Source of the DNA: Bradyrhizobium tropiciagri
GTDB taxonomy: Bacteria; Pseudomonadota; Alphaproteobacteria; Rhizobiales; Xanthobacteraceae
Assembly: GCF_001189845.1 (NCBI RefSeq)
Contig: NZ_LFLZ01000002.1
Location: 124,001-188,000 of the forward strand
Direction: 5' to 3'
Length of the DNA: 64,000 bases
The translations under genes were made by a program, and so were the position numbers. The notes below the pieces were generated by a model. The model ran no database searches. It was given only the letters and a program-made list of their open reading frames with translations, and was not told where the DNA came from. This document shows positions 47,693-64,000 of this stretch, piece by piece (within the stretch, counting starts at the first letter, position 1; each line of letters opens with the position of its first letter).

Positions 47693-48226
47693 TCACTTCT
47701 TGTCGTTGTGGCCCATGCAGGCGTCTTCCGCCTTGCCGTAGGCTTCCGATTTGTCTTCGTGCTTGGCCGGCCGTACGCGCTCAACCGCATCATTGGAACG
47801 AGCGCGCAGGTACACATAGAGGTCGTCCATGTAGCAAGCAACGTTCGGATTGTCGCCGAACGCCGGCATAACGTTCTCCTGCGACGTCGAGACGTTCTTG
47901 CGTCCGCTCGCGACCACGCCGAGAAAATCGGCATAGTTCATGCTCTTCAGCGAGTCCTTCAGCGCAGGCGCGTACGTCGAACCCATACCATCGGGCCCGT
48001 GGCAAACGTGGCATTCCGAATGGTATCGGCGATATCCAGAGTAAGTGTACCAATCGACGGTCCCGTCAGGTGCAACCTTGTAGGTCGGGTTACCGTCCTT
48101 ATCGAGATACTTGCCGTCCTCGGATTTGACCGCCGTCGGGTCGCCGGGAGCTTCGGCAGAGGCAACTCCTCCCATTGCCACGACGAAGATCGCAGCAGTC
48201 ACAAACCAGATCTTACGCAAAAGCAT
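47693..48226 (-). CDS. xoxG: Cytochrome c partner of XoxF (cytochrome cL type)
   Basis: 177 aa. Signal peptide to about residue 24 (GGVASA). Heme motif C-H-V-C-H at residues 72-76; the likely Met ligand is in ENVMPAFG near 114. Start ATG 48226; longer frame spurious. A polar Lys/Asp-rich tail ends CMGHNDKK. It accepts electrons from PQQ of XoxF and passes them to the respiratory chain. Located directly downstream of xoxF with a strong hairpin between. Confidence 0.9.
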   Translation of the reverse strand: MLLRKIWFVTAAIFVVAMGGVASAEAPGDPTAVKSEDGKYLDKDGNPTYKVAPDGTVDWYTYSGYRRYHSECHVCHGPDGMGSTYAPALKDSLKSMNYADFLGVVASGRKNVSTSQENVMPAFGDNPNVACYMDDLYVYLRARSNDAVERVRPAKHEDKSEAYGKAEDACMGHNDKK

Positions 48227-48252
48227 ATCCTCGCGTGCGGATGGAAGACGGA

Positions 48253-48282
48253 CCGGCGCATGGAGATCGCCCCATGCGCCGG
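48253..48282. other. Strong hairpin between xoxF and xoxG
   Basis: CCGGCGCATGG at 48253-48263 pairs perfectly with CCATGCGCCGG at 48272-48282, loop of eight bases. No T-run. It probably protects the abundant xoxF mRNA 3' end or reduces read-through to xoxG, allowing unequal amounts. Confidence 0.65.
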
Positions 48283-48299
48283 AACGAGGCTTGCTCAGC

Positions 48300-50105
48300 T
48301 CACTGCTGCGGCAGCGAGAACACGGTGAGCGTTCCACCGAGCGCGGTGTAGTTGCTCAGCGCCGCATAGCCGCCGACTGCGCCAAGACCGGCCGTCGGAT
48401 CAGTCAGACCGGCCGCGAGGCCGATGCCTGCCCAACCACCAACACCTGACAGAACTGCGACGTACTGCTTGCCGCCATTCTCATAGGTGGTGACGTTGCC
48501 GATGATGCCGGACGGAGTCTTGAACTTGTAGAGCTCCTTGCCCGTCTTCGCGTCGACCGCCTTCAGGTAGCCTTCCAGCGTGCCGTAGAACACCACGCCG
48601 CCGGCGGTTGCGAGCGCACCCGACCAGACCGAGAACTGCTCCTTGTTCGACCACACGATCTTGCCGGTCTTGCCGTCCCAGGCAATGAAATTGCCCATGT
48701 TGGTCTCACCGGGAGGCGGATACATCGACAGCGTCGCGCCGACATAGGGCTGACCTGCGGTGTAGCTCACCTTGAACGGCTCGTAGTCCATGCAGACGTG
48801 GTTGGTCGGCACGTAGAACAGTTGCGTGTCGGGCGAGTAGGCCGCCGGCTGCTCGTCCTTCGAACCCAGCGCCGCCGGGCAGATGCCCTTGACGTTGTGG
48901 TCTTCGCCGGCCTTGTCGGTCGACGCTGCATCGAGAACCTTCGGACGACCATAGGTCGGCGAGCTCTTGTTCATATCGACGCCGGAGGTCCAGTTCACCT
49001 TCGGATCATACTTGTCGGCGACCAGCAGTTCGCCGGTGGCGCGATCGAGCGTGTAGCCGAGGCCGTTACGATCGAAGTGCGTCAGCAGCTTGCGCGGCGT
49101 GCCGTCGATCGACTGATCCGAGAGGATCATCTCGTTGACGCCGTCATAGTCCCATTCGTCATGAGGCGTCATCTGGTAGACCCACTTGGCGACGCCGGTA
49201 TCCGGGTTGCGCGCCCAGATCGTCATCGACCACTTGTTGTCGCCGGGACGCTGCTTCGGATTCCAGGTCGAGGGATTGCCCGATCCGTAATACACGAGGT
49301 TCAGTTCAGGATCGTAGGAGATCCAGCCCCAGGTCGCGCCGCCGCCGATCTTCCATTGATCGCCTTGCCACGTCTTCAGGCTGGAGTCCTTGCCGATCGG
49401 CTTGCCGAGCTCGGTGGTCTTGTCGTCGACCAGGATCTGATCATCCGGACCTTCCGAGAAGCCGCGCCAGACCAGCTTGCCGGTCTTGAGGTCGTAGGCC
49501 GTCATGTGGGCCTGAACGCCGAACTCGCCGCCGGAGATACCCACCAGGACCTTGTCCTTGATGACCATCGGCGCCGAGGTACCGGTCGATCCCTTGCTCG
49601 GATCGCCGTTCTTGACGCTCCACTCAACCTTGCCGGTCTTCGCATCGAGCGCGACCAGCGTGGTGTCGGCCTGATGCAGGATGATCTTGCCGTCGCCATA
49701 GGCGACGCCGCGATTAACGGTGTCGCAGCACATCACCGGAATGACGTTCGGATCCTGCTTCGGCTCATACTTCCAGACGATCTGATTGTCCTTGGAAAGG
49801 TCAATAGCGTAGACCTTGTTCGGGAACGGGGTGTGCACGTACATCATGTTGCCGATGATCAGCGGTCCGCCTTCGTGACCGCGCAGCACGCCGGTCGAAA
49901 ACGTCCAGGCGACCTGCAACTTTCCGACGTTCTGGGCGTTGATCTGATTCAGCTTCGAGTATCGCTGATTGGTGTAGTCGCCGGTCGGCATCACCCAGTC
50001 TTTCGGGTTCTGCGACATCTTGTGGAGTTCGTCATTGGCGCTGGCAGCTCCGACGGCAAACACCGCCATTGCCCCAAGGCCAGTCGCGTAAAGCATCTTG
50101 CGCAT
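48300..50105 (-). CDS. xoxF: Lanthanide-dependent PQQ methanol dehydrogenase XoxF
   Basis: 601 aa. Signal peptide to residue 23 (GAASA). Eight-bladed quinoprotein propeller with repeated tryptophan-docking motifs (e.g. [13 protein letters not shown]-like blades). Adjacent Cys126-Cys127 form the ring disulfide over PQQ. Metal ligands by motif: Glu194 (SGGEFG), Asn277 (GSGNPS), catalytic Asp319 and Asp321 in EWDYDGVNE. The second Asp (D-x-D) is the mark of lanthanide enzymes; calcium MxaF has Ala there. Start ATG 50105 with AGGA 9 bases upstream. Oxidises methanol to formaldehyde or formate in the periplasm. No mxaF in the window. Confidence 0.96.
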
Positions 50106-50525
50106 CGTGGATTTCCTCCCAGGTTCAAGAGCTCAAGGGTTTCCGCCGAAACGGCCCCACTTCTTCCATTTTGGTGCCCCAGTCGTAGTCCGATCGAACC
50201 CTGCTGACTTGCCCAATAGAGAAGAGCCGTTTGCTCAAAAGCGAAGCTGCGACAGATTTTTGCAGGCCCGCCCCCAATGGCTGGCAAAGGTTGCTTCATG
50301 TTGCAGGGCATCAATCGCGGCCGGCACATTCGAAGCGCCAGATTGACGCGTTCTAAGGTTGCGCTTGACGAGCCCAGAACTAAGTCGGAGGATCACCCGA
50401 CATTAACCGGGAAGAAATCCCGCCACCTCCCTAAGCTGTTCAGAATCAGGGAGAAGGCGCATCGTCCCGGGCCAGATTGAGCTCGGTGAGCAGTCACGTT
50501 GGGGATCGAATCGGTGGCTGGAAAG
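50106..50525. other. Divergent promoter region between xoxF and the AraC gene
   Basis: 420 bases (393 if TTG 50499 were the AraC start). It must carry the xoxF promoter and the AraC promoter. AT-richer around 50215-50260 and 50395-50420. No convincing operator palindrome or sigma-54 site found by eye. Confidence 0.55.
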
Positions 50526-51500
50526 ATGTCCGATACAGTCCATTCACTCAGCACGAACGGATTGACGCCCAAGCGGCAAATCCAGCGCTGGTCGGATGCG
50601 CTCACTGATCTCTGTGGTCAGTTCGATGTCGATGCGCTGGAAGGATCCTCGCTCGAGGGCCGCATCAATTTCACGACGGTCTCGCGATTGAAGCTGTGCC
50701 AGATCGAGGCAAGCCAGCACCGGATCGCGCATACCATCTCACGCATCAAACTCAGCGAGCACCCCTACATCAAGATCGTTTTCCAGACCCACGGCGTCTC
50801 GCATTTCGAGCAGGACGGTCTGCACTTCGACATCATGCCGGGCGACTGCTTCGCCTACGACGTGTCCTGTCCGCATACGATCATCAGCCCGTCCCTGACC
50901 CGTCACGAGGTCGTCATCGTGCCGAAGGACCTGCTCAAGGAGCGCGGCTTCCAGCTCTCGAAGATGGCGCCCTGCAAGCTCTCGGCGCGCAACGGCACCG
51001 GCCGCATCGCCTATGATTTCGTGCACGCCGCGTTCGGCGAGGCGCCGACGCTGACCCCGGTCAACGCGGTCGGTGTCGCCGATGCGCTGATCGATTTGCT
51101 GCTGCTGCCGCTGCGAGAAACCGGCGCGATGTTCGACCGCGGCAGCGCCGAGGCGACCTATGTGCGGGCCCAGGGCTTCATCCGCGAGCACCTGCGCGAT
51201 CCCGATCTCTGCATCGACCGCATCTCCGCGGCGCTCGGCTGCTCGAAGCGCTATCTGCACATGCTGTTCAGCGATCGCGGCATGACGGTCAGCGACTACA
51301 TCTGGAAGGCCCGGCTGCAGAATTGCCGGCAGGAGCTGGAATCCCAGAACGGCAAGACCATCACGGACGTGGCCTTCTCCTGGGGCTTCTCGAGTTCTTC
51401 GCATTTCAGCCGCGTGTTCCGGAAATATTTCGGCATCGCGCCCTCGTCCGTTCACAAGGGCCTGCACAGCGGCATGCCGGTGGACGTGGTGCTGGAGTAG
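50526..51500 (+). CDS. AraC-family regulator next to xoxF
   Basis: 324 aa from ATG 50526 (MSDTVHSLSTNG); TTG 50499 would add nine residues. N-terminal AraC-binding-like cupin domain up to about residue 200 (HYIKIVF-like strand EHPYIKIVFQTHG, core YIKIVFQ; GDCFAYDV). C-terminal double helix-turn-helix with CIDRISAALGCSKRYLHMLF (core SKRYLHMLF) and ITDVAFSWGFSSSSHFSRVF (core GFSSSSHFSR). Divergent from xoxF, so a local role in methanol or lanthanide response is plausible but unproven. Confidence 0.88.
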   Translation: MSDTVHSLSTNGLTPKRQIQRWSDALTDLCGQFDVDALEGSSLEGRINFTTVSRLKLCQIEASQHRIAHTISRIKLSEHPYIKIVFQTHGVSHFEQDGLHFDIMPGDCFAYDVSCPHTIISPSLTRHEVVIVPKDLLKERGFQLSKMAPCKLSARNGTGRIAYDFVHAAFGEAPTLTPVNAVGVADALIDLLLLPLRETGAMFDRGSAEATYVRAQGFIREHLRDPDLCIDRISAALGCSKRYLHMLFSDRGMTVSDYIWKARLQNCRQELESQNGKTITDVAFSWGFSSSSHFSRVFRKYFGIAPSSVHKGLHSGMPVDVVLE

Positions 51501-51530
51501 CGTTTCCGTCTGGCGTGCAGGCGTCACGCC

Positions 51531-51939
51531 ATGCTGTCGACCTTCAAATCCTCATCAATCAAGCTGACCTCAATCAAGGCTTGGGCGCGCAACCTCAAGC
51601 GGGACAGCGTCGCGCTCTATCTCGCGGCGCGTGACCCGCGCGTACCATGGTACGCCAGCGCTTGCGATCGCCATCGCGGCCTATGCGCTGTCTCCGATCG
51701 ATCTGATTCCGGATTTCATCCCGGTGCTCGGCTATCTCGATGATCTGATCCTGCTGCCGCTCGGCATCTGGTTCGCGATCGCGCTCGTTCCGGACGAAGT
51801 GATGGCGGAATGCCGCGCCAAGGCCGGCGCGGTATTGCAGCGACCGATCAGCCGCGCCGGGATGATCGCAATCGTCGTGCTCTGGATCGCCGGCGCATTT
51901 GCGCTGGTGTGGGCCGCTTTCAGATACTGGCCGCGGTAG
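51531..51939 (+). pseudogene. YkvA/DUF1232 family membrane protein, apparently frameshifted
   Basis: Frame one from ATG 51531 gives KAWARNLKRDSVALYLAARDPRVPWYA (core RDPRVPWYA). Frame two continues ALAIAIAAYALSPIDLIPDF (core SPIDLIPDFIP, the family hallmark) and then ends at 51939 after a membrane helix. The frames join at about 51655-51658, where GCCAGCG replaces an expected GCCAAGGCG: two doublets each read as single bases. The second frame alone (from GTG 51631) keeps most of the DUF1232 core. Role unknown; family members affect cell-wall and stress traits. Its end overlaps the convergent kinase gene by 20 bases. Confidence 0.7.
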
Positions 51940-53293
51940 CGGCCTTCGGCACCAGCGCCTCGACCGTCACGCCGTCATCGGTGGAGTTGATCTTGAGCGT
52001 GCCTCCGAGCGCGAGGATCCGCTCCTGCATGCCGGTCAAACCGCGGCCAAGCCTGCGATCGGCGAGCATGCCGCGGCCATTGTCGCGAACCCGCACCAGC
52101 ACGCCATCGCGGCTGCCGCGCAGGCCGGCCTGCCGCTCGACGGGCTCGATCGTGATAGCGACCGCCGTCGCGCCGGCGTGGCGGAACACGTTGGTGAGCG
52201 CTTCCTGGACGATGCGGTAGATCGTCAAATCGGCCATCTCGCCGGTCTCGCCGAGATCAGGCGACACGTTACTCTCGATCTCCACCTCCGGATGCGTCTC
52301 GCTCCACAGCCGCACCAGCGCACCGAGCGCTTCTGCAAGCCCGAGCTCGGCCAATCCCACCGGCCGCAATCGCTCAAGGATGCGGCGAGTGAACTGCTGG
52401 AGCGCGTTGACCTGCTCGAGGATGGCGTTGCCGTGCTTGCGCAATGCCGCAGGATCCGCCTTGTCCACCTCCGACAGCCGGGTCAGTGCGCCGGCATGCG
52501 CGCGCAGCGCAAACAGATAGGGCCCGAACTCGTCGTGCAGTTCGCGCGCGATTTCCTTGCGTTCGGAATCCTGCAGCGAGACCGCACGTTCGGCGAGTAG
52601 CCGCTTGCTGTCGACGGCCTCGCCAAGCGTCGCCGCCAAATGGTTCAGTTTGGCACAGATCGCGGCCAATTCGGGCGATCCGCCGGGCTCGACCCGTGCA
52701 TCGTAATCCCCGGCCTCGATACCGATCATGGCCTGCGACAGCGCCTCGAGCGGCGCCAGCGCGCGACCGACCACCAGCATGGTCACCAGCAGCAGCGCCA
52801 CCGCGATCGCGGAGCCGATCTCGAGCTGGGTAACGATGCCGTCCCAGATCTCGGCGATCTCGTCGTCGGGATGCGAGGTGATGACCAGCGACTGCGGTTT
52901 GCCGTGAACCGAGATCGGCACCCGCACCGAGGTCTGCTCGGGATGGACCAGCGCGACGAACCACTCCGGCGGGGCGCGCGGATCGCCAGCGTCCTGCGGA
53001 CGCTCGGGAGACTTTGCGGTCGCGTCATCCTGCCGCGTGATGCTGACATGACGCAGCCGGCTCAGATCCTCGACGATCTGATCAAGCCGCGCATCGGGAT
53101 CCGGCGCCTCGTCGAGGCCGGCCACGATCGCAGCAACAAACTCGCGCGCGAGCCGGATAACGCTTTGATCTTCTGCCTGAACGCGAGGTCCCGCCTCGAG
53201 CGCCAGCCGCGCGATATTGATGCCCAATCCAAGCGCCAGAATCAGCGCCAGCAACAGGTTGATCCGTGCGCGCAAGGATAGCTTTTGCCACAT
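51920..53293 (-). CDS. Sensor histidine kinase, NarL-partner type (FlhS-like)
   Basis: 457 aa; start ATG 53293. Membrane segments at about residues 12-31 and 160-182 enclose a periplasmic domain of about 125 residues. HAMP follows (RALAPLEALSQAM), then HisKA_3 with the phospho-His in KEIARELHDEFG near residue 255, then HATPase (QEALTNVFRHAGA N box, DNGRGM, GRGLTGM). Divergent from its response regulator. Position between xoxF and fghA resembles flhSR of Paracoccus, which controls methanol and formaldehyde oxidation; assignment by analogy. Confidence 0.88.
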   Translation of the reverse strand: MWQKLSLRARINLLLALILALGLGINIARLALEAGPRVQAEDQSVIRLAREFVAAIVAGLDEAPDPDARLDQIVEDLSRLRHVSITRQDDATAKSPERPQDAGDPRAPPEWFVALVHPEQTSVRVPISVHGKPQSLVITSHPDDEIAEIWDGIVTQLEIGSAIAVALLLVTMLVVGRALAPLEALSQAMIGIEAGDYDARVEPGGSPELAAICAKLNHLAATLGEAVDSKRLLAERAVSLQDSERKEIARELHDEFGPYLFALRAHAGALTRLSEVDKADPAALRKHGNAILEQVNALQQFTRRILERLRPVGLAELGLAEALGALVRLWSETHPEVEIESNVSPDLGETGEMADLTIYRIVQEALTNVFRHAGATAVAITIEPVERQAGLRGSRDGVLVRVRDNGRGMLADRRLGRGLTGMQERILALGGTLKINSTDDGVTVEALVPKAATAASI

Positions 53294-53473
53294 GACGTTG
53301 CCCCCGACCGCGATCCCTCCTCCGAGAGGATCGTTGACAGCCAAATTTGCCCGGCTATCTAATCGCACCCTATCGCAATCCCGTGCGAGGTGCACAACCG
53401 GTCGGAACCGAGGTGTTCTTCGCGCAAGCCGATGTGATGACGCGTGAATCGATGAGGTCGCCGGAACAACGCC

Positions 53474-54094
53474 ATGCGCATTCTGATCGTTGACGATCAT
53501 CCCATCGTTGCCTCCGGTTGTCGCACCGTGTTCGCCGACGATCCCGCGATCACCCTGCTCGAAGCAGCGGATGCCGAGAGCGGCGAGCGGGCTTTCGTTG
53601 CGGAGAAGCCCGATCTCTGCGTGATCGACATCAACCTGCCGACCGTCTCCGGCTTCGAGCTGGCCCGGCGCATCCTGAGCCGTGATGCGTCCGCGCGCCT
53701 CATCATGTTCAGCATGAACGACGACCCGGTGTTCGCCGCCCGCGCCATCGACATCGGCGCCAAGGGCTACGTCTCGAAGACCGGCGATCCCAACGATCTG
53801 GTGGAGGCGGTCCGCGAGGTCGGTAACGGCGGCGTCTATCTGCCGCCTGCGATCGCACGCAATGTCGCCTTTGCGCGGCCGGGCTTTGCGCAGAATCCGC
53901 TTTCCAAGCTGACCTCGCGCGAGATGGAGATCCTGCGCCTGCTCAGTTCCGGCAAGAGCCTGTCGGAGATCGCCTGGCTGGTCCATTCGTCATACAAGAC
54001 GGTCGCGAACACGTCATCGATCATGCGCCAGAAGCTTGGCGTGCGCACTTCGGCCGAGCTGGTGCGCCTCGCGATCGAGAGCGGCGTCGCCTGA
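53474..54094 (+). CDS. LuxR/NarL-type response regulator (FlhR-like)
   Basis: 206 aa. Receiver domain with acidic pocket VDDHP, phospho-Asp52 in CVIDINLP, Ser/Thr in FSMND and Lys in YVSKTGD. LuxR helix-turn-helix near residues 145-200: LTSREMEILRLLSSGKSLSEIA (core LTSREMEIL) and SYKTVANTSSIMRQKLG. Probably controls the fghA and xoxF genes in response to the divergent kinase (inference). 30 bases before fghA. Confidence 0.92.
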   Translation: MRILIVDDHPIVASGCRTVFADDPAITLLEAADAESGERAFVAEKPDLCVIDINLPTVSGFELARRILSRDASARLIMFSMNDDPVFAARAIDIGAKGYVSKTGDPNDLVEAVREVGNGGVYLPPAIARNVAFARPGFAQNPLSKLTSREMEILRLLSSGKSLSEIAWLVHSSYKTVANTSSIMRQKLGVRTSAELVRLAIESGVA

Positions 54095-54124
54095 CGCCGC
54101 GCACCAACACAGAGGAATACGACG

Positions 54125-54964
54125 ATGCAGACGGTTTCCCAGAACAAGTCGCATGGCGGCACACAAGGCGTCTACCGCCATCCCAGCCGCGAGACCAAGA
54201 CCGACATGACGTTCTCGGTGTTCGTCCCTGAGCATGCGGCGGGCACCAAATTGCCTGTCGTCACCTACCTGTCGGGCCTGACCTGCACGCACGCCAACGT
54301 CACCGAGAAGGGCGAATTCCGCCAGGCTTGCGCCGAGCTCGGCCTGATCTTCGTCGCTCCGGATACCAGCCCGCGCGGCGAAGGCGTCCCGGGCGATCCC
54401 GCCAATTCCTACGATTTTGGCCTCGGCGCAGGTTTCTATGTTGATGCGACGGAGCAGCCGTTCGCGACCAACTACCGGATGTGGAGCTACGTCACTGAGG
54501 AATTGCCCAAGCTGATCGCCGAGCAATTCCCGGTCGACACGACGCGGCAATCGATCCTCGGTCACTCCATGGGCGGCCACGGCGCGCTGACGATGGCGCT
54601 GCGCCATCCGGATCGCTATCGCGCAGCAAGTGCGTTTGCGCCGATCGTGGCACCATCGCAGGTACCGTGGGGCAACAAGGCGCTCGGCGGTTATCTCGGC
54701 AGCAACAAGCAGGCGTGGCGCAAGCATGATGCGGTCGCGCTGATCGAGGATGGCGCCCGCTTCTCCGACCTGCTGGTCGATTATGGCGATGCCGACGGTT
54801 TTCTCACCGAGCAGCTGCGGCCCGAGCTGCTGAAGGCGGCGTGCGAGCAGGCCAACATTCCCCTCACCTTGCGGCGTCAGCCGGGCTACGACCACAGCTA
54901 TTACTTCATCTCGACCTTCATGGCCGATCATCTGCGCTGGCACGCCGCGCGGCTGAAGGCGTGA
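54125..54964 (+). CDS. fghA: S-formylglutathione hydrolase
   Basis: 279 aa esterase-D family. Nucleophile Ser in GHSMGGHGAL near residue 148; Asp in the YGDADGFL segment near 222 and His in GYDHSYYF near 257 complete the triad. LSGLTCTHANVTEKG (core GLTCTHANV) is the usual family block near residue 52. Releases formate and glutathione from S-formylglutathione, the last step after Gfa and the class III dehydrogenase. Follows the response regulator closely, likely same transcript. Confidence 0.95.
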   Translation: MQTVSQNKSHGGTQGVYRHPSRETKTDMTFSVFVPEHAAGTKLPVVTYLSGLTCTHANVTEKGEFRQACAELGLIFVAPDTSPRGEGVPGDPANSYDFGLGAGFYVDATEQPFATNYRMWSYVTEELPKLIAEQFPVDTTRQSILGHSMGGHGALTMALRHPDRYRAASAFAPIVAPSQVPWGNKALGGYLGSNKQAWRKHDAVALIEDGARFSDLLVDYGDADGFLTEQLRPELLKAACEQANIPLTLRRQPGYDHSYYFISTFMADHLRWHAARLKA

Positions 54965-55784: not shown

Positions 55785-56966
55785 ATGTTCCGATGGCTGA
55801 TCGGCACGATCGCGCTCAGCATGATGGCGGCCAGAGCGCTGGCGGCTGATCCCGTCGAGATCCATATCGGCTATCTCGGGCATGCCGGCGTCAAATCGAC
55901 GCTCTCGCTGGTCGAACAGCCGGCCGACAATGACGGCATCGCCGGCGCGCGGCTCGCGATCGAGGACAACAATACGACCGGCAAGTTCCTCAACCAGCGC
56001 TTCGCGCTCGACGAGGTCAAGGTCAAGGACAGTGACGATGTCGCCAAGGTCGCGACCGATCTCGCCGGCCGCAACGACTACATCATCACCGATCTGCCAG
56101 CCGACGCGCTGCTCAAGGTCGCCGATGCACTACGCGATCGCGGCACCATGCTGCTGAATGCCGGTGCGATCGACGACCGGCTGCGCGAGCAAGACTGCCG
56201 CGGCAATGTCGTCCATGTCGCGCCGACCCGCTCGATGCTGGCGGACGCGCTCGGCCAGTACCTGGTATGGAAGCAGTGGAAGCGCTGGCTGCTGGTGAGC
56301 GGCTCGCACGATCAGGACAAGCTCTACGCCGATGCGCTGCGCCGCGCCGCCAACCGCTTCGGCGCCAAGATCGTCCAGGAACGGACCTTCGAGGACACCG
56401 GCGGCGCGCGGCGCACCGACTCGGGCGTGACGCTGATCCAGCGCCAGATGCCGGTGTTCACCCAGCAGGCACCGGCCTACGACGTGCTCGTTGCCGCCGA
56501 CGAGAGCGAGGTGTTCGCGAACTATCTGCCCTACCGGACCTGGGACCCGCGGCCTGTCGCGGGCTCGGCGGGGCTGGTGCCGACCAGCTGGGACGCGGCG
56601 CATGATCAATGGGGCGCGGTCCAGATCCAGAACCGCTTCGTCAAGCTGAACATGCGCCGCATGACGGCGCTCGACATGCAGGCCTGGACCGCTGCCCGCA
56701 TGATCGGCGAAGCCACGTCCCGCACCAGCTCGGGAGACCCCAAGAAGGTCATCGCCTTCCTCAAGAGCAAGGATTTCTCGATCGCCGCCTTCAAGGGCAC
56801 GCGACTGACCCTGCGCGACTGGAATTGGCAGCTCCGCCAGCCGATCCTGCTGGCCGATGGTCGTATGGTCGTTTCGGTCTCGCCGCAGGAAGGTTTCCTG
56901 CACCAGGTCTCCGAGCTCGACACGCTCGGAGTTGACCGGCCTGAAACGAAGTGCAAGCTGCAGTAG
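55785..56966 (+). CDS. ABC substrate-binding protein of the PQQ-dependent alcohol dehydrogenase system
   Basis: 393 aa with a signal peptide to residue 20 (RALAA). Type 1 periplasmic binding fold: IHIGYLGHAG start, GARLAIEDNNTTGKFL (core LAIEDNNTTGK), and YDVLVAADESEVFANYLPYRTWDPRPVAGSAG (core WDPRPVAGS). This matches the family named for its association with PQQ alcohol dehydrogenases (TIGR03863). The ligand is unknown. First gene of a tight operon: SBP, beta-propeller, ATPase, permease, unknown. Confidence 0.88.
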   Translation: MFRWLIGTIALSMMAARALAADPVEIHIGYLGHAGVKSTLSLVEQPADNDGIAGARLAIEDNNTTGKFLNQRFALDEVKVKDSDDVAKVATDLAGRNDYIITDLPADALLKVADALRDRGTMLLNAGAIDDRLREQDCRGNVVHVAPTRSMLADALGQYLVWKQWKRWLLVSGSHDQDKLYADALRRAANRFGAKIVQERTFEDTGGARRTDSGVTLIQRQMPVFTQQAPAYDVLVAADESEVFANYLPYRTWDPRPVAGSAGLVPTSWDAAHDQWGAVQIQNRFVKLNMRRMTALDMQAWTAARMIGEATSRTSSGDPKKVIAFLKSKDFSIAAFKGTRLTLRDWNWQLRQPILLADGRMVVSVSPQEGFLHQVSELDTLGVDRPETKCKLQ

Positions 56967-56979
56967 GGAGATGAAACGC

Positions 56980-57948
56980 ATGAGGCGCCGCTGTCTGTTG
57001 ACCGGGATGCTCGTTTGGCTTGCCGCGACACCGGCGTCCGCCTTCGTTGCCTATGTCTCCAACGAAAAGGGCAATACGGTCACGGTGATCGACACCGACA
57101 GCTGGACGGTGACGAAAACCATCAAGGTCGGCCAGCGGCCGCGCGGCATCGAGTTCTCGCGCGACGGCAAGTTCGTGATGGTTGCGGTCGGCGACGACGA
57201 CACCATCCAGGTGATCGACACCAAGACCCAGGAGATCGTCGACACCCTGCCCTCCGGCCCCGACCCTGAGCTGTTCACGCAGGATGCCGCCGGCAAGACC
57301 ATGTACGTCGCGAACGAGAACGACAACACGGTCACCGTGATCGATCTCGAGAAGCGCGCCCGGCTTGGCGACATCCAGGTCGGCGTCGAGCCCGAGGGCA
57401 TGACGATCAGCCCGGACGGCAAGGTCCTGATCAACACGTCCGAAACCACCAACATGGCGCATTTCATCGACACCGCGACGCGCCAGATCGTCGGCAATGT
57501 GCTGGTCGATTCGCGGCCGCGCTTCGCCCAGTTCAAGCGCGACGGCTCCGAATTGTGGGTCTCCTCCGAGATCGGCGGCACGGTGTCGATCATCGATCCG
57601 GTCAAGCGCGAGGTAACCGGCAAGATCACCTTTGAAATCCCGGGCCTGCGCAACGAGGCGATCCAGCCCGTCGGCATCGGCATGACCAAGGACGGCAAGA
57701 CAGCGTTCGTCGCGCTCGGCCCCGCCAACCGCGTCGCGGTGGTCGATGGTGCGACCCACAAGGTGCTCAAATATCTGCTGGTCGGCCAGCGGGTCTGGCA
57801 CATGGATTTCACCCCCGACGAGAAATATCTGATGGTCACCAACGGCGTTTCGAACGATGTCTCGGTGATCGACGTCGCGGCCCAGAAGGTGATCAAGACC
57901 ATTCAGGTCGGCGAATTGCCTTGGGGGATCACGGTCGCGCAGCCATGA
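56980..57948 (+). CDS. PQQ-dependent catabolism-associated beta-propeller protein
   Basis: 322 aa. ATG 56980 is preferred over 56971 because GGAG touches the latter. Signal peptide to about residue 20 (TPASA). About seven YVTN-type repeats of about 42 residues, each with V-x-VIDT and a later YVAN/FVAL strand, make a propeller. Family TIGR03866. No heme or metal motif. It may dock the quinoprotein or bind a cofactor. Its stop overlaps the ATPase start (ATGA). Confidence 0.88.
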   Translation: MRRRCLLTGMLVWLAATPASAFVAYVSNEKGNTVTVIDTDSWTVTKTIKVGQRPRGIEFSRDGKFVMVAVGDDDTIQVIDTKTQEIVDTLPSGPDPELFTQDAAGKTMYVANENDNTVTVIDLEKRARLGDIQVGVEPEGMTISPDGKVLINTSETTNMAHFIDTATRQIVGNVLVDSRPRFAQFKRDGSELWVSSEIGGTVSIIDPVKREVTGKITFEIPGLRNEAIQPVGIGMTKDGKTAFVALGPANRVAVVDGATHKVLKYLLVGQRVWHMDFTPDEKYLMVTNGVSNDVSVIDVAAQKVIKTIQVGELPWGITVAQP

Positions 57949-58760
57949 CCGCAACCGACGCCCATATCGCGAGCCAATCCTCGCCGGATGCAAGTCCTGC
58001 AGCAACCGCGCAGCCGGCGTTGTCGATCGGCAATGTCAGCCACAGCTACGGTCCGCGGCGCGCCTTGATTGATGTCAATTTCACGGTCGCACCGGCGAGC
58101 TTCACCGCACTGCTCGGCCTCAACGGCGCCGGCAAGAGCACGTTGTTCTCGCTGGTGACGCGGCTGTTCGGCATCCAGAACGGCCAGATCAAGATCTTCG
58201 GCCACGACATCAGCCGGACGCCGGGTGAAGCGCTGCGTCTGATGGGCGTCGTGTTCCAGCCGCGCACGCTCGATCTCGATCTGTCACTGACGCAGAACCT
58301 GCTTTATCACGCCGCGCTGCACGGCATCTCGCGGCGCGAGGCGCGGCTGCGCAGCGCCGAGGTGCTCGGCCGCATCGGACTTGCCGACCGCGCCGGCAGC
58401 AAGGTGCGTGACCTCTCGGGCGGCCAGATGCGGCGGCTCGAGATCGCCCGCGCGCTGCTGCACCGACCGCGGCTGCTGCTGCTCGACGAGGCTACCGTCG
58501 GGCTCGACGTCAAGGCGCGCGCCGACATCCTCGACCACGTCCGCCAACTCGTCGCCGAGCAGGGCATCGGCGTGCTCTGGGCGACGCATCTGTTCGACGA
58601 GATCATGCCGGGCGACGACCTCGTCGTGCTGCATCAGGGCCGGATGCTGGCGCACGGCCCGATGTCGCGCGTGATCGCGGACGCAGGCGCCCAGGACGTC
58701 AACACCGCGTTCATGCGCCTGACCGGAACGGCAACCCTCACCGGAAAACCGCCAACATGA
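57945..58760 (+). CDS. ABC transporter ATPase, PQQ-dependent alcohol dehydrogenase system
   Basis: 271 aa. Walker A GLNGAGKST near residue 62, signature LSGGQMRR near 158, Walker B LLLLDEAT near 178, H-loop WATHLFDE. Q-loop FQPRTLDLDLS is the family's own form (TIGR03864). Start overlaps the propeller stop. Its closest general relatives are export-type (drug/NodI-like) ATPases, so the system may export something to the periplasm even though an SBP is encoded upstream. Confidence 0.9.
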   Translation: MTATDAHIASQSSPDASPAATAQPALSIGNVSHSYGPRRALIDVNFTVAPASFTALLGLNGAGKSTLFSLVTRLFGIQNGQIKIFGHDISRTPGEALRLMGVVFQPRTLDLDLSLTQNLLYHAALHGISRREARLRSAEVLGRIGLADRAGSKVRDLSGGQMRRLEIARALLHRPRLLLLDEATVGLDVKARADILDHVRQLVAEQGIGVLWATHLFDEIMPGDDLVVLHQGRMLAHGPMSRVIADAGAQDVNTAFMRLTGTATLTGKPPT

Positions 58761-59605
58761 GCAGCACGACGGTCACGCCCGAACGCAGCGGCTTCTCGGT
58801 GTCCGAATACATCGTCTGCCTGAACGGCATCGTGTGGCGCGAGGCGCTGCGCTTCCTGCATCAGCGCGAGCGGTTCGTCTCGGCGCTGGTCAGGCCGCTG
58901 GTCTGGCTGTTCATCTTTGCGGCCGGCTTCCGCCAGGTGCTCGGCATCTCGATCATCCCGCCCTATGAGACCTACATCCTCTACGAGGTCTATATCGCGC
59001 CAGGCCTGATGGCGATGATCCAGCTCTTCAACGGCATGCAATCCTCGCTGTCGATGGTCTATGACCGCGAGATGGGCAACATGCGCACGTTGCTGGTCAG
59101 CCCGCTGCCGCGCGGCTATCTGTTGTTCTGCAAGCTGCTCGCCGGCACCGCGGTGTCGCTGCTGCAGGTCTACGCCTTCCTGCTGATCGCGTGGTTCTGG
59201 GATATCACGCCGCCGACCATCGGCTACCTCACCGTGCTTCCGGCGCTGGTGCTGTCGGGCCTGATGCTCGGCGCGCTGGGCATGCTGATCTCAGCCAGCA
59301 TCAAGCAGCTGGAAAATTTCGCCGGCGTGATGAACTTTGTGATCTTCCCGATGTTCTTTGCCTCGTCGGCGCTCTACCCGCTCTGGCGAGTGCAGGAAGG
59401 CAGCCCGATGCTGTACTATGTCTGCCAGTGCAATCCGTTCACCCATGCGGTGGAGCTGATCCGGTTTGCGCTCTACGGCAAGATGAACTGGGTTTCGCTC
59501 GCGGTGGTCGGCGGCTGCACGGTGGTGTTCATGATCGGCGCGATCCTGGCTTACGATCCATCGCGCGGCCTGGTGCGCCGCGGACCCGGCGGAGGCGAGG
59601 CATGA
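58757..59605 (+). CDS. ABC-2 type permease, PQQ-dependent alcohol dehydrogenase system
   Basis: 282 aa with six hydrophobic segments. ABC-2/NodJ-like layout: VRPLVWLFIFAAGFRQVL (core RPLVWLFIF), YIAPGLMAMIQLFNGMQSS (core APGLMAMI), and LYPLWRVQEG near the last third. Family TIGR03861 (PedC-like). ABC-2 permeases are exporters as a rule. Start and stop overlap neighbours. Confidence 0.9.
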   Translation: MSSTTVTPERSGFSVSEYIVCLNGIVWREALRFLHQRERFVSALVRPLVWLFIFAAGFRQVLGISIIPPYETYILYEVYIAPGLMAMIQLFNGMQSSLSMVYDREMGNMRTLLVSPLPRGYLLFCKLLAGTAVSLLQVYAFLLIAWFWDITPPTIGYLTVLPALVLSGLMLGALGMLISASIKQLENFAGVMNFVIFPMFFASSALYPLWRVQEGSPMLYYVCQCNPFTHAVELIRFALYGKMNWVSLAVVGGCTVVFMIGAILAYDPSRGLVRRGPGGGEA

Positions 59606-60219
59606 CAGGCTTGCGAACGGGATTTGGCGCGCTGCTCGCGATGGCGCTGTCGAGCCAGGTCGCATTGGCTGCGGATCCGCGTTACCCGGACTGGCCCTGC
59701 CAACAAGCCAAGGTGCCCGAGATCTCGCTCGCCGCCGTCTGGGCCGGGCCGCCGCTCGGCGATGCCGAGACCAAGTGGAGGGACGATCCGAAGATCAGCG
59801 CACTCGCGACCAAGCTCGCCGCGCGCCGCGTCCCGCTCGAGGATGCACAGAAGCAGATCACCGAGTTCCTGCAGGCCGCCGCGGCGGACAAGGCCAATGC
59901 GGGAAAGCTGCTGTTCGCTGGCCTGTTCGATACGCTCAATGGGCAGCGTGCCTCGGTCATGAACGGGCTCGAGCGCGTGATGCGCAAGCAGCGCGAGGCC
60001 GCGGAGAAGATCCGCGACGATACAATCAAGCTGCAGGCGTTGCAGGATGCCACGCCGCCGGACCAGACCAAGGTCGACGAACTCGGCAACCAGCTGGTCT
60101 GGGAGACGCGGATCTTCGAGGACCGCGGACGGGTGGTGAAATTCGTGTGCGAGGTGCCGACCACCATCGATCAGCGGCTGTTTGCGCTCAGCCGCACCAT
60201 CCAGCAGGAGCTGGATTAG
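59602..60219 (+). CDS. Periplasmic protein of unknown function in the quinoprotein-associated operon
   Basis: 205 aa; signal peptide to residue 23 (SQVALAA). Mature part begins with DPRYPDWPCQQAKVPEIS, with the only Cys pair (Cys33 and Cys in KFVCEVP near 182), so one disulfide may link the ends. Otherwise strongly helical with coiled-coil potential at about residues 85-165. WPCQQAKVPEISLAAVW (core WPCQQ-x-VP) looks conserved. Last gene of the operon by ATGA overlap. No family recognised. Confidence 0.75.
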   Translation: MTGLRTGFGALLAMALSSQVALAADPRYPDWPCQQAKVPEISLAAVWAGPPLGDAETKWRDDPKISALATKLAARRVPLEDAQKQITEFLQAAAADKANAGKLLFAGLFDTLNGQRASVMNGLERVMRKQREAAEKIRDDTIKLQALQDATPPDQTKVDELGNQLVWETRIFEDRGRVVKFVCEVPTTIDQRLFALSRTIQQELD

Positions 60220-60247
60220 CCCTACTGCGGCACGGGTCTGCTTCCAT

Positions 60248-60334
60248 CGTCATTGCGAGGAGCGATAGCGACGAAGCAATCCATCTCACCCCGTTTGCGG
60301 ACAGATGGATTGCGTCGCTTCGCTCGCAATGACG
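60248..60334. repeat. Palindromic intergenic repeat
   Basis: Left arm 60248-60286 (CGTCATTGCGAG...GCAATCCATCT) and right arm 60303-60334 (AGATGGATTGC...CTCGCAATGACG) are inverted copies with a few mismatches and a gap in the longer arm. This CGTCATTGCGAG type is common between genes in Bradyrhizobium. Likely hairpin at the end of the ABC operon. Confidence 0.8.
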
Positions 60335-60454
60335 GCCGATGTGTTCGCAGCCTCACAGGACTGGCGGGAGGTGCTCCTTTGCGCAGCGCTGTTCCGGAAC
60401 CAAATGCGCCCCCCGCTCGTTGACCCCAACTATATCTGAAGTTGGGAGACCTTG

Positions 60455-60751
60455 ATGAGAGCAGCCAAGATCGTCATGACCAGCCTCGCCGCCGCGAGCC
60501 TGATCACCTCAGCGGCTTTCGCCCAGCAACCGATGACTGGAATAGTCACCAAGATTGACCGATTGAGTGGAACCATCTCGCTCCAGCAGACGCAAAGCGG
60601 AACGGTGGGCGCGGCCGGCGGCGCGATGCAGGAATACAAGGTACCCAAGGGACAGTCGCTGGAGGACTTCCACGCCGGCGACAAGGTAACGTTCACCACC
60701 TCAGACAGCGATGGCGGCAAAACCATCAACAAGCTCGACAAGCAGAAATAA
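60455..60751 (+). CDS. Small periplasmic CusF-like OB-fold protein
   Basis: 98 aa from ATG 60455. Signal peptide to residue 23 (SAAFAQ). Core GIVTKIDRLSGTISL and AGDKVTFTTSD match the first and fourth strands of CusF-type proteins. The Met/His/Trp copper ligands of CusF are not present, so copper binding is doubtful. Convergent with the CxxxCW gene. May be a general periplasmic metal or ligand carrier. Confidence 0.6.
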   Translation: MRAAKIVMTSLAAASLITSAAFAQQPMTGIVTKIDRLSGTISLQQTQSGTVGAAGGAMQEYKVPKGQSLEDFHAGDKVTFTTSDSDGGKTINKLDKQK

Positions 60752-60775
60752 TCGGCACGACGCGTGAGGACGGGC

Positions 60776-61330
60776 TCAATGCTCGCCCTCGCGCGGCTCG
60801 GGCTCCACATCCGCCAGCGGCAGCTTGGCCCGTTCCCACCCGTCGGTTCCCTCCGGATACCACGCCACGTTGCGGTAGCCGTAGGACAGCACGCGCTTGG
60901 CCGCGTTCCACGACATCCAGCAACTTTCCTGACAATAGATCACGAGCAATTTTGCTTGGTCGTCGCCGGAGGCACGCACCAGGCCGCGCCGGAGATAGTC
61001 CTCGGTTGAAGCGGCAAGTTTGCCGTAGCCGGTGTCGGGCAGCCAGATGCTGCCGGGAATGTCGCGATGCGGCCGCTCGCGCCACACCGTGCCGGCGGGC
61101 AGTTTCGGCTTCGGCGGGCGCGGCAGCACGTCGACGAAGGCACCGGACTTGTCGCGCCAGATCGCTGCCGCTTCCTCCGTCGTGAGCACGCGTGCGCCGG
61201 CAAGCGTGGCCGGTACAAGTGCGCGGTAATCCTCGGTGCGGTACCCCTCGGGCTCTGCAGGCTGGTCCTGCGCGCGGACAGGCGAAGCGGCGACCACCAG
61301 CACCGCCAGCATGGCCGCGAGCCTGATCAT
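60776..61330 (-). CDS. PQQ-dependent catabolism-associated CxxxCW motif protein (rhodanese-like)
   Basis: 184 aa; signal peptide to residue 20 (SPVRA). Rhodanese-like order: VLTTEEAAAIW, FVDVLPRP, DIPGSIWLP and the loop IYCQESCWMSWNAAKR with C-x3-C-W where rhodaneses hold the active Cys. The family (TIGR03865) tracks PQQ alcohol dehydrogenases. It could carry sulfur or act as a redox relay. Overlaps the end of the xoxJ-like gene's transcript; its start 61330 overlaps the xoxJ stop (ATGA). Confidence 0.9.
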   Translation of the reverse strand: MIRLAAMLAVLVVAASPVRAQDQPAEPEGYRTEDYRALVPATLAGARVLTTEEAAAIWRDKSGAFVDVLPRPPKPKLPAGTVWRERPHRDIPGSIWLPDTGYGKLAASTEDYLRRGLVRASGDDQAKLLVIYCQESCWMSWNAAKRVLSYGYRNVAWYPEGTDGWERAKLPLADVEPEPREGEH

Positions 61331-62208
61331 GGCGACTTGGTTGCGGTCTCCGGCCCGATCGGACGGTCGTTCTCGTCGAGCAGCGGAACGCCGAAGTCGA
61401 GCAGGATCTTGTTGATCGCCGGCTGGTTCTCCTGGATCAGTCGATTGAGCTGCCGCTTCCAGTTCTGGTCAGATCCGCGCACGCCCATGCCGATGCGATA
61501 CACCAGCTTCGGTCCCGTGGTCTCCTTGACCAGCGGCGTGATATGCAGCGGCGGGTTCGCCTTCTTGGCATAAAAGCCCGCCATCGGCCCCCACAGGATG
61601 CCGGCATCGATCTCGCCCTTTTCGAGATCGTTCATCATCGCCTCGGCCGAGGAATCGTAGCGCGTGTCGATCATCAGCGGATAAGGCTTGGCATTGCCCA
61701 TCAGCCCGTTGATGGCCATGTTGGTCGCCGGCGGCGTTCCGGCGACGATGCCGATATGCTTGCCCTTCAGCCGCTCATCCTCGAGCGTCGTGACCTCATC
61801 CAATCCGCTGCCCGGCTTGGCGACGATCGCATAGGCCGTGCGGTAATACGGATTGGTGCCCTGCGCGAGGTCGTCGCCTTGCGGAAATCCCATGATCACG
61901 TCGCAGCGATGCGAGCCGAGAGTAACCCGCACGAAACCGGTCGCCTGCGGAAAATACATGTAATCGAGCTTCTTCTGCAGCTTCTCGGCAAACAGCTCGC
62001 CGATCTTGTTCTCAAAGCCCTCGCCCTTGTCGTTCGAGAACGGCAGGTTGCGCGGATCGGCACAGATGCGGAGAACTTTGGGATCGACCAGCTCGATGGA
62101 GAGTTCGCCCTGCTCATTGACCTGCGCACGCGCGATGTCACGGCCGGCGAGACAGGCGATAAAGCCGACAAGCGCGAACAGGACAGGACGGCATCCGACA
62201 ACTCTCAT
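61327..62208 (-). CDS. xoxJ: XoxJ/MxaJ-like periplasmic binding protein
   Basis: 293 aa from ATG 62208 with GGAG eight bases upstream. Signal peptide to about residue 28 (DIARAQ). Type 2 periplasmic fold of SBP family 3: LRICADPRNLPFSNDKGEGFENKI (core ADPRNLPFSN) and GIVAGTPPATN. This is the quinoprotein dehydrogenase-associated family (TIGR03871) that includes XoxJ, thought to help activate or mature XoxF. Here it is 11 kb from xoxF but in the same cluster. Confidence 0.85.
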   Translation of the reverse strand: MRVVGCRPVLFALVGFIACLAGRDIARAQVNEQGELSIELVDPKVLRICADPRNLPFSNDKGEGFENKIGELFAEKLQKKLDYMYFPQATGFVRVTLGSHRCDVIMGFPQGDDLAQGTNPYYRTAYAIVAKPGSGLDEVTTLEDERLKGKHIGIVAGTPPATNMAINGLMGNAKPYPLMIDTRYDSSAEAMMNDLEKGEIDAGILWGPMAGFYAKKANPPLHITPLVKETTGPKLVYRIGMGVRGSDQNWKRQLNRLIQENQPAINKILLDFGVPLLDENDRPIGPETATKSP

Positions 62209-62375
62209 CACGCGGTCTCCTCTTGAGCGGACAGGTCACCGTGGTCAGGCAATTGCCCGGCGCGCCATGACGTGTAACAGGGATAATGATCGCGACGGCG
62301 CCGCGTTGCTTGTTGCAGCGCAAACGCACGTGAGACGACATCGTTCATGCGTCCCGGAAAAACTGAGGCGGAAAC

Positions 62376-63302
62376 ATGGCTCATGGCGGTTCGGTGCTTG
62401 CGCTGCTCCTGATGCTTTGGGCGCCGACCATAGCGCGGGCGCAAGAGGCGGAATTGCCTGTGAGCGAAGTCGCCCCCGGAATATTCGTTCACACCGGCGT
62501 CACTGCATTGATGACGCGCGAGAACGAAGGCGCCATCGCCAATGTGGGCTTCGTGATCGGCGACAGTGCCGTTGCCGTCATCGACACCGGCGGCAGCGTT
62601 CGCGAAGGACTGCAATTGCTCGCCGCGGTGCGCAGCCATAGCGACAAGCCGATCCGCTACGTCATCAACACCCACGCGCATCCGGACCACAGCTTCGGCA
62701 ACGCGGCGTTCGTCGGCGACGGGACCAGCTTTGTCGGCCACAAGGCCCTGCCCCGCGCGCTGGCGGCGCGCGGGCAATTCTATCTCGACGGATTTCGGCG
62801 GACCATGGGCGATGCCTTGGTCGACGAGGTGCGGATCATTCCACCAACCGTGCTGGTCGAGGACACGCTGAAGCTCAACCTTGGCGGACGGAGCCTCACT
62901 CTGAAGGCCTGGCCGCCCGCCCACAGCGACAACGACCTGACCGTCTTCGATGAACGCAGCGGGACCCTGTTCGCCGGCGACATGGTGTTCCTCGAGCATA
63001 TTCCGGTGGTCGACGGCAGCCTCAAGGGCTGGCTGCGCGCGCTCGACGACCTCGCCGCGATTCCCGCCGAGCGTGTGGTTCCCGGTCACGGACCCGTGAG
63101 CGCATGGCCTGCGGCGCTCGCCGACGAACGGCGTTATCTCGAGACGCTGGCCACGGACGTGCGCGCGCTGGTCAAAAGCGGCAAGCCGATCACGGCTGCG
63201 GCGGAGCACGCCGCGGCAGCTGAGCGGCCGCGCTGGCAATTGTTCGATGATTACAACGCCCGCAACGCAACTGCAGCATTCTCGGAAATTGAATGGGAGT
63301 AG
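62376..63302 (+). CDS. Quinoprotein relay system zinc metallohydrolase (SoxH-related MBL fold)
   Basis: 308 aa; signal peptide to residue 22 (TIARAQ). Metallo-beta-lactamase motif [10 protein letters not shown] near residue 103, second His in PPAHSDNDL near 183, Asp in FAGDMVF and His in VPGHGP near 235. Belongs with SoxH-like hydrolases seen beside quinoprotein genes. Possibly acts on a thiol-linked intermediate carried by the SoxYZ-like protein encoded next. Divergent from xoxJ. Confidence 0.88.
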
Positions 63303-63345
63303 CTGTTGGCCCTATAATGATGCGGCTGCATAGGATCTCGCGAAC

Positions 63346-64000
63346 ATGACCGGACATCGCGCCCGCCTGCTTTGCGTCGCCAGCCTTGTTGCGATCGCGC
63401 TGGGCACACCGGCCGCGCTCGCGGCCGAGACCTATGACCCCTGGCCGGGCCTCGTCCAGGACATCTTCAGCAATCGTCCGATGAATGACGGCAACGACGT
63501 CATCGGCATCGAGATGCCGGCGCGCGCGGAGGACGCCGCGATCGTTCCGGTGACGCTGCGCACCAAGCTGCAACCCAGCGACAGCCGCCGCGTCATCGCC
63601 ATCACCCTGGTCATCGACGAAAATCCCGCACCGATGGCCGCGAAATTCACGCTCGGGCCGGACGCCAATGTCACCGAGATCTCGACCCGCGTCCGCGTCA
63701 ACAATTACACCAACGTGCACGCCGTCGCGCAGCTCAGCGACGGCAAGCTCTATGTGAGCAAGGTCTACGTCAAGGCATCCGGCGGCTGCTCGGCACCGGC
63801 CGGCAAGAACGTCGAGGAAGCGAAGAACCGGCTCGGCCAGATGCGCTACCGGCAATTCACGAAGTCCGAACAGGGGCCGGCGACCAGCACGCGCGAAGCC
63901 CAGATCATGATCGGGCACCCGAACAATTCAGGCCTGCAGATGGATCAGGTCACGCAGCTCTATATCCCGGCCTTCTTCGTCAACGAGCTGCACATCTGGC
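63346..64000 (+). CDS. Quinoprotein dehydrogenase-associated SoxYZ-like carrier (partial)
   Basis: 218 codons are present; the gene runs off the right edge. Signal peptide to residue 25 (PAALAA). SoxY-like beta-sandwich with VPVTLRTKLQ and the GGCSAP motif near residue 146, where SoxY has its sulfur-carrying GGCGG; the Cys is kept although not at the protein end. A SoxZ-like domain should follow (starts near IMIGHPNNSG). 43 bases after the MBL gene. Family TIGR04557 by layout. Cargo unknown. Confidence 0.85.
   Translation, partial: MTGHRARLLCVASLVAIALGTPAALAAETYDPWPGLVQDIFSNRPMNDGNDVIGIEMPARAEDAAIVPVTLRTKLQPSDSRRVIAITLVIDENPAPMAAKFTLGPDANVTEISTRVRVNNYTNVHAVAQLSDGKLYVSKVYVKASGGCSAPAGKNVEEAKNRLGQMRYRQFTKSEQGPATSTREAQIMIGHPNNSGLQMDQVTQLYIPAFFVNELHIW

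Follow-up and report, generated by a model that had tools for sequence, protein, structure and literature searches.

Lanthanide (Ln)-dependent enzymes are common in soil bacteria, and the movement of Ln across and within the periplasm and its insertion into the methanol dehydrogenase XoxF are unsettled. The window, a 64-kb stretch of Bradyrhizobium tropiciagri DNA (G000:C2:124001-188000; source genome 9.77 Mb), ends with genes that raise this question: a five-gene operon for an ATP-binding cassette (ABC) unit at 55785-60219, and genes for a CXXCW protein, XoxJ, a SoxH-like hydrolase and a SoxYZ-like carrier at 60776-64000. What do these genes do for a pyrroloquinoline quinone (PQQ) dehydrogenase? 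Our analysis suggested that the locus is probably a lut/ped-type Ln module serving XoxF, together with a quinoprotein accessory set. Our own evidence consists of the genes present, their synteny with lutABCDEFGH, their co-occurrence with Ln-type enzymes, conserved residues and fold matches; what each protein binds, and whatever concerns the carrier adduct, is what we infer.

The genes named in a preliminary description of the window were found where it had placed them, and all except the helical protein scored above the curated NCBIfam cut-offs. The features are as follows (bit score, then family cut-off).

47693-48337, minus strand: xoxG-type cytochrome c; start uncertain, named from place and sequence; its profile matches further copies beside xoxF genes
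48300-50105, minus strand: xoxF, Ln-type PQQ methanol dehydrogenase; [12 protein letters not shown], extra Asp (DYD), vicinal VMCCDTV
55785-56966, plus strand: lutA/pedA1-type substrate-binding protein; TIGR03863, 488.5 bits, 413.6
56971-57948, plus strand: lutB/pedA2-type seven-bladed YVTN propeller; TIGR03866, 517.6 bits, 287.3
57945-58760, plus strand: lutE/pedB-type ABC ATPase; TIGR03864, 341.5 bits, 302.25
58757-59605, plus strand: lutF/pedC-type ABC-2 permease; TIGR03861, 413 bits, 241.35; Pfam ABC2_membrane
59602-60219, plus strand: lutG-type exported helical protein; from synteny, alignment and structure model
60452-60751, plus strand: small CusF-like protein; PF11604; not listed in the preliminary description
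60776-61330, minus strand: PQQ-associated CXXCW rhodanese-like protein (CQESCW); TIGR03865, 225.5 bits, 128.05
61327-62211, minus strand: xoxJ-type binding protein; TIGR03871, 299.2 bits, 212.15
62376-63302, plus strand: SoxH-like metallo-hydrolase; TIGR04559, 405.8 bits, 280
63346-64000, plus strand: SoxYZ-like carrier with GGCSAP motif; TIGR04557, 226.5 bits for the part in the window, 140

The SoxYZ-like gene extends beyond the window end; the whole protein has 274 amino acids and scores 282.8 bits against TIGR04557. The ATG codons taken as starts of the propeller gene (56971 or 56980) and the ATPase gene (57945) were our choice. Four-base stop/start overlaps were found between propeller and ATPase (57945-57948), ATPase and permease (58757-58760), permease and helical protein (59602-59605) and, on the minus strand, XoxJ and CXXCW (61327-61330). 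These overlaps suggest two operons, one running from the binding protein through propeller, ATPase and permease to the helical protein, and the other, xoxJ-CXXCW, on the opposite strand. The helical protein matched nothing in NCBIfam (E 0.001) or Pfam (E 0.01).

The ABC unit and its lut/ped counterparts

To which known system does the ABC unit belong? The named loci and the permease alignment were the best 80 of 579, and 17 of the 80 loci are titled Methylobacterium or Methylorubrum. The order A1-A2-LutC-LutD-ATPase-permease-helical protein was unbroken in 15 of these 17. L154 has all seven genes, although its binding-protein (A1) gene lies some 6 kb away on the upstream side, and in L156 no A1 or LutC was seen and the propeller match was weak; a LutH-type receptor comes next in 12 of the 17. 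This is the order lutA-lutB-lutC-lutD-lutE-lutF-lutG-lutH published for M. extorquens (PMC7391723), and therefore the window propeller corresponds to LutB and the helical protein is the LutG counterpart.

On methanol with lanthanum (La), wild type M. extorquens grew at 0.16 per h, the lutB mutant at 0.02 and the lutG mutant at 0.03 after a lag; the lutA, lutB and lutG mutants lie at 0.02-0.03 per h, and lutE and lutF mutants did not grow until suppressors appeared (PMC7391723). The same study found La accumulating in the periplasm of lutA, lutE and lutF mutants and located La granules in the cytoplasm. In Pseudomonas putida, PedH-dependent growth required about 100 times as much La once pedA1A2BC had been deleted (PMC6839425), and PedA1A2BC is the same unit as the lut ABC unit (PMC6839425, PMC12997753). 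Homologs of lutA, B, E, F and G in Bradyrhizobium and Sinorhizobium were reported in a 2025 paper (PMC12628762). Because mutants have been studied in P. putida and Methylorubrum extorquens and Bradyrhizobium homologs are in print, the unit at 55785-60219 is already known, and the earlier statement that these families are known only by their association with PQQ dehydrogenases does not hold for it.

Within the window, four family members stand above curated cut-offs in one operon, and a LutG-type exported protein follows the permease, with family and place as in the Methylobacterium loci. The window genome has a PQQ dehydrogenase with the extra Asp (DYD), a predictor of the Ln-type enzyme (PMC12628762). 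The order A, B, E, F, G is common to the window and M. extorquens; the likeness to LutG comes from place and the Methylobacterium alignment. The M. extorquens cluster also holds lutC, lutD, lutH and lanM, whereas in the window a 4-base overlap of the propeller gene with the ATPase gene takes the place of lutC and lutD, xoxF is about 5.7 kb off, and the LutH-type gene is on another contig (G000:C69; 44% identity, 546 bits). PedA1A2BC of P. putida KT2440 shares the four gene kinds, and the NCBIfam permease model carries the PedC name, but the window has an extra lutG-type gene, and its enzyme is XoxF-like and not the ethanol-type PedH. Bradyrhizobium loci among the best 80 share the gene order of the window, and the permeases of two aligned ones are 93% and 90% identical to that of the window. 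The window locus is an ordinary member of a known gene set.

The preliminary description was right that a binding protein is paired here with an ABC-2 permease, an arrangement that it had called unusual. Pfam gives ABC-2 for the permease, and its model (predicted local distance difference test score 75.5) matched exporter-type/type V folds. All of the 50 matches listed (Z 14.8 to 19.0) were ABC-2/type V chains, among them ABCH, KpsM, ABCA4, ABCA1, NosY, ABCG, TarG, Wzm and CcmB; types I and II importers were absent from this list, which leaves room for such matches outside it. ABCA4 (7m1p_A) gave Z 17.2 and a root-mean-square deviation of 4.2 over 245 aligned positions, and NosY (7o12_E) Z 16.4 and 4.2 over 225. 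By sequence, the best hit of the permease profile to solved structures had E 0.055. The LutG model (confidence 93.2) has a 71-residue helix (79-149) and further helices at 155-182 and 185-204, and its family has two invariant Cys (23/23 in one alignment and 47/47 in another). The fold search with LutG found no match at E 0.001, the best Z of 8.8 being at chance level for helical bundles, and sequence and fold searches gave no clear relative. In the LutA-type binding protein, the two Cys and three Asp checked were invariant in 43/43.

Distribution with Ln-type dehydrogenases

Five families were searched in the same 329 Pseudomonadota genomes, one phylum with unevenly represented lineages. The permease was counted at E 1e-40, and the SoxYZ-like gene when above its cut-off with no internal stop. 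At most four PQQ alcohol dehydrogenase (PQQ-ADH) candidates were scored per genome, and the type of each enzyme was read from the second residue after its catalytic Asp, covering all listed enzymes of the 31 permease-negative genomes and some of those of the 46 permease-positive ones. Ln dependence is thus predicted from sequence, and a small number of unusual motifs (in G256, G283 and one in G294) are counted in the Ln class.

The permease was found in 46 genomes, the SoxYZ-like gene in 37, CXXCW in 33 and PQQ-ADH in 77. Any match to SoxYZ was found in 111/329 genomes; the rows with an internal stop or in pieces were left out, and we take these for true SoxY and SoxZ neighbours. The hydrolase was found in 74/329 genomes at E 1e-30, 24 of them above the TIGR04559 cut-off. 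There were 53 genomes with an Ln-type enzyme, 24 with PQQ-ADH but no Ln-type, and 252 without PQQ-ADH. In these three groups the permease was present in 46, 0 and 0 genomes, so that it occurred solely with Ln-type dehydrogenases; the SoxYZ-like gene was present in 36, 1 and 0, and CXXCW in 32, 1 and 0. Counted by genus, Ln-type versus other PQQ-ADH, the values were 27/32 versus 0/20 for the permease (p = 4e-10), 20/32 versus 1/20 for SoxYZ (p = 3e-5) and 16/32 versus 1/20 for CXXCW (p = 7e-4).

The propeller was also found where the permease was not. In four genomes (G223, G229, G250 and G283) an Ln-type enzyme occurs with a propeller above cut-off, and no permease and no LutA match was found; the ATPase was not searched for there, and the LutA search, whose model finds the window LutA and that of pME152, matched no genome or control. 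In G283 the propeller lies between the dehydrogenase and xoxJ genes. Two sphingomonad plasmids, Sphingobium indicum pSRL2 and Novosphingobium ES2-1 p1, carry by name a dehydrogenase, binding protein, PedF, propeller, porin, TonB receptor, hydrolase, SoxYZ and rhodanese-like protein, and no ABC genes in the roughly 25 kb judged. G249 and G256 have an Ln-type enzyme, and no permease, LutA or propeller was found in them.

Are the same propeller residues kept when the pump genes are not found? Glu 15, 83, 99, 123, 125, 141 and 183 and Arg 39, 41, 165, 167 and 257 (alignment numbering) were identical in 44/44 propellers, and Asp58 was kept in 42/44. On the YVTN repeat, the Glu and Arg positions map to two kinds of loop, the one that precedes strand A and the one that joins strands B and C. 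Such loops lie on one propeller face, and the invariant residues are predicted to line it. Of the five propeller copies in the four genomes, only the second one of G223 (L278) deviates at the 12 positions, by a single Glu, and the two plasmid propellers keep the Glu and Arg residues; a G294 copy, which scored below cut-off, lacks one of the Glu and carries Lys in place of one Arg. Since the lone propellers keep the same residues, the conserved face is not kept for the pump alone. Ln, an Ln chelate, PQQ or the enzyme may be a likelier partner of the face than the pump. Because it also occurs where neither permease nor LutA was found, the propeller can apparently function in the absence of import, and a propeller standing alone marks organisms that use an Ln enzyme but seem to have no ABC unit.

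The Ln-type genomes with a lone propeller, and the loss of hydrolase zinc ligands in some lineages described below, are new here. These two observations and the survey numbers were not found in the open-access literature searched, and passages of PMC5934484 and PMC8969499 hold nothing that contradicts their novelty.

The SoxYZ-like carrier set

The accessory families of the window score above cut-off, its carrier Cys and CxxxCW are kept, and all seven metal-ligand positions checked are present in its hydrolase. Residues were counted above our own score floors (200 bits for SoxYZ, 290 for the hydrolase, 380 for the propeller). The carrier Cys was invariant in 45/45 aligned SoxYZ-like genes, and both Cys and the Trp of CxxxCW were kept in 35/35. 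Ligand positions of the hydrolase were changed in 5/40 genes (G019, G231, G328 and both aligned G246 copies). The carrier Cys is invariant while the hydrolase ligands vary, and it is therefore the constant part of the set. Zinc hydrolysis may perhaps not always be needed.

CXXCW was never found without SoxYZ (33/33 genomes), and SoxYZ occurred without CXXCW in G019, G231, G246 and G328. In the order of G328, a whole SoxYZ-like gene was found in 26/110 genomes (43 genes) and CXXCW above cut-off in 0/110, with four sub-cut-off matches; intact hydrolases are common. Two hydrolase matches lie within 2.3 kb of 10 of the 43 SoxYZ-like genes, and pairs were typed in the 30 loci listed for 43 matching genomes. 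In the six pairs typed at seven positions (G347, G353, G362, G384, G389, G394), one copy is intact and the other ligand-poor. A rule that genomes without CXXCW have a zinc-ligand-poor hydrolase held in four genomes of the first sample; it was rejected because Azospirillum thermophilum has both a CXXCW gene and a ligand-poor hydrolase. Proteins named 'quinoprotein relay system zinc metallohydrolase 1' in L243, L245 and L249 (above the TIGR04558 cut-off) and in L230 and L231 (by annotation) are missing three of the seven checked ligand positions, so the family name overstates the chemistry of these members.

The set is also separable from the dehydrogenase: in Sphingobium sp. RAC03 the trio sits on a plasmid typed conjugative, adjoining a Tn3-family transposase, with no annotated PQQ-ADH in the 24.7 kb viewed. 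The P. putida ped cluster contains the same three protein kinds, rhodanese-like, SoxYZ-like and SoxH-like (PP_2666, PP_2677 and PP_2678; PMC12997753), the window hydrolase being of the TIGR04559 (type 2) form. Thiosulfate-oxidising SoxYZ has SoxY and SoxZ domains and the Cys after GG in common with the window protein, but the domains are fused in the window, and the Cys is in an internal GGCSAP and not in a C-terminal GGCGG arm; the window protein scored 72.8 bits against the true-SoxY cut-off of 125. Clustering of neighbours around SoxYZ, judged by eye in 44 chosen loci, gave mostly antisense shadows and known genes, and no pmpAB-like family was recognised there by eye (no profile was run for pmpAB).

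Does the carrier set work in one cycle with the ABC unit, as an exporter, as the preliminary description had proposed? A covalent carrier is plausible, because the SoxY-like Cys is kept in 45/45. One joint exporter and carrier cycle is not supported, because SoxYZ and CXXCW do not follow the ABC unit strictly. In the Ln-type genomes (counted before G111 was typed), 32 had both SoxYZ and permease, 3 SoxYZ only, 13 permease only and 4 neither, and the link was not significant (Fisher p = 0.20). A functional link between the halves is indicated best by G328, G019 and G231, where permease, SoxYZ and hydrolase genes are consecutive on one strand. The earlier interpretation is thus partly supported.

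Mechanism, alternative explanations and neighbouring genes

In the proposed mechanism, the LutH-type receptor encoded on another contig would bring Ln chelates into the periplasm, where LutA and the LutB propeller would bind Ln or the chelate. The LutE-LutF pump, aided by LutG, would move Ln onward with ATP, into the cytoplasm according to the published work. XoxJ would assist apo-XoxF. The SoxYZ-like Cys would carry a covalent adduct from or to a non-haem, mostly Ln-type, PQQ dehydrogenase, and the CXXCW protein and SoxH-like hydrolase would load or release it.

Several points weigh against this mechanism. The permease model points to an exporter-type or type V fold, which would sit badly with import. 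ABCA4, an importer, has the same fold, and the fold thus leaves the transport direction unsettled. Among the 53 Ln-type genomes, 17 have no SoxYZ-like gene and 7 no permease, so neither is obligatory. G054 has SoxYZ, CXXCW and hydrolase but no Ln-type among its two listed enzymes; one is Ser-type, which we take to be a Ca-type enzyme, and one Thr-type, which we take, also from its length, to be a quinohaemo enzyme. No LutC, LutD or LutH-type receptor was found within the 64-kb window, and lutC and lutD are part of the M. extorquens cluster. PMC12997753 describes P. putida as being without LutH, so LutH is not strictly defining for the unit; it also reports that accessory genes had little phenotype in randomly barcoded transposon sequencing (RB-TnSeq) of P. 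putida without rare earths.

The ABC unit may instead act on the periplasm, as a machine like NosDFY or CcmABCD: ATP strokes of LutE/LutF, transmitted by LutG and the LutA/LutB pair, would serve to load Ln or Ln-PQQ for the dehydrogenase, or to release it. We consider this unlikely. An ABC-2 permease fold and a periplasmic cofactor context are shared with both systems, and the permease model matches NosY and CcmB chains, but also KpsM, Wzm, TarG, ABCG and ABCA, NosY being one among many equal matches. The propellers without permease and LutA in four Ln-type genomes and on two sphingomonad plasmids, with residues kept, and the G283 propeller between dehydrogenase and xoxJ genes argue for such a machine, although the ATPase was not searched for in the four genomes. 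No NosD-like protein was found in the operon, which instead encodes a binding protein of type I together with the YVTN propeller and the helical protein. Import, in turn, directly explains the cytoplasmic La granules and the periplasmic La of lut mutants (PMC7391723). A wider scheme would make LutB/PedA2 a periplasmic chaperone that binds the Ln (or Ln-PQQ) cofactor on the propeller face with the invariant Glu and Arg and passes it, with XoxJ, to XoxF, LutE/LutF NosDFY-like, and the SoxYZ Cys with an intact hydrolase, in some lineages beside a ligand-poor twin, a covalent repair relay for XoxF; as a whole it appears improbable. Export of a small molecule such as PQQ would agree with the permease fold and Pfam class, but the unit has a binding protein, and the permease was not found in 24/24 non-Ln PQQ-ADH genomes, which also need periplasmic PQQ. 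We regard export as very improbable.

For the carrier set, clearance of sulfur nucleophiles (sulfite, thiols) from PQQ or the periplasm is possible, if somewhat unlikely: an adduct would form on the SoxYZ-like Cys and then be hydrolysed. The idea is in PMC12997753, and the proteins are related to SoxY, SoxZ and rhodanese. In Hyphomicrobium, Sox(YZ)/SoxH genes lie near the YeeE-like pmpAB, for which the authors see no evidence of a sulfur role (PMC11582611). However, all PQQ enzymes would need such clearance, yet the genes track mainly the Ln-type, and the hydrolase zinc ligands are lost in several lineages. It seems quite improbable that SoxYZ, SoxH and CXXCW serve in forming or repairing the vicinal disulfide of the dehydrogenase, a role proposed in PMC12997753 with which the conserved Cys of the SoxYZ and CXXCW proteins agree. 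The Cys pair is present in 113/117 typed PQQ-ADH rows, Ca-type and quinohaemo-type included (three of the four exceptions are gapped there, and one G217 gene was entered twice), and the disulfide was rejected as a discriminating target; in addition, 23/24 PQQ genomes without an Ln-type enzyme have no SoxYZ-like gene.

A tie to NosDFY through a NosR-like/ApbE pair was also considered and rejected: the window has no such gene (E 1e-3), and the link of NapH-like proteins to alcohol oxidases is already printed, the cluster being described as an electron-transfer route (PMC8238504). A NosR-like iron-sulfur protein lies near PQQ-ADH, PedF or lutA/lutB in L281, L283, L284, L285, L286, L060, L063 and L067; where scored it reached 449-645 bits to NosR (cut-off 1000), and an ApbE gene is present in 7/8 loci. 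In Variovorax boronicumulans the NosR-like gene comes after pqqBCDE and the genes for ATPase, propeller, binding protein and permease, all in the same orientation. In L283 (Variovorax) a high-potential iron-sulfur protein stands beside the dehydrogenase where a cytochrome c is found elsewhere, which suggests a different electron acceptor.

The CusF-like gene, between the lutG-type and CXXCW genes, was seen in 11 of the best 80 of 579 named loci, all titled Bradyrhizobium, and a metal role is possible. A DUF3280 gene (PF11684; 55133-55728, minus strand) runs across two frames, with profile positions 2-64 in one and 60-138 in the other, and is a broken gene or a sequencing error; in Sinorhizobium meliloti (L234) an annotated DUF3280 gene adjoins CXXCW. 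The xoxF of L013 (G217) reads as two pieces, possibly a broken gene or an assembly error. The stretch between xoxF and the lut operon (50499-54964) encodes an AraC-type regulator, a histidine kinase paired with a LuxR-type regulator, and an S-formylglutathione hydrolase-type esterase, fitting a methanol/formaldehyde locus.

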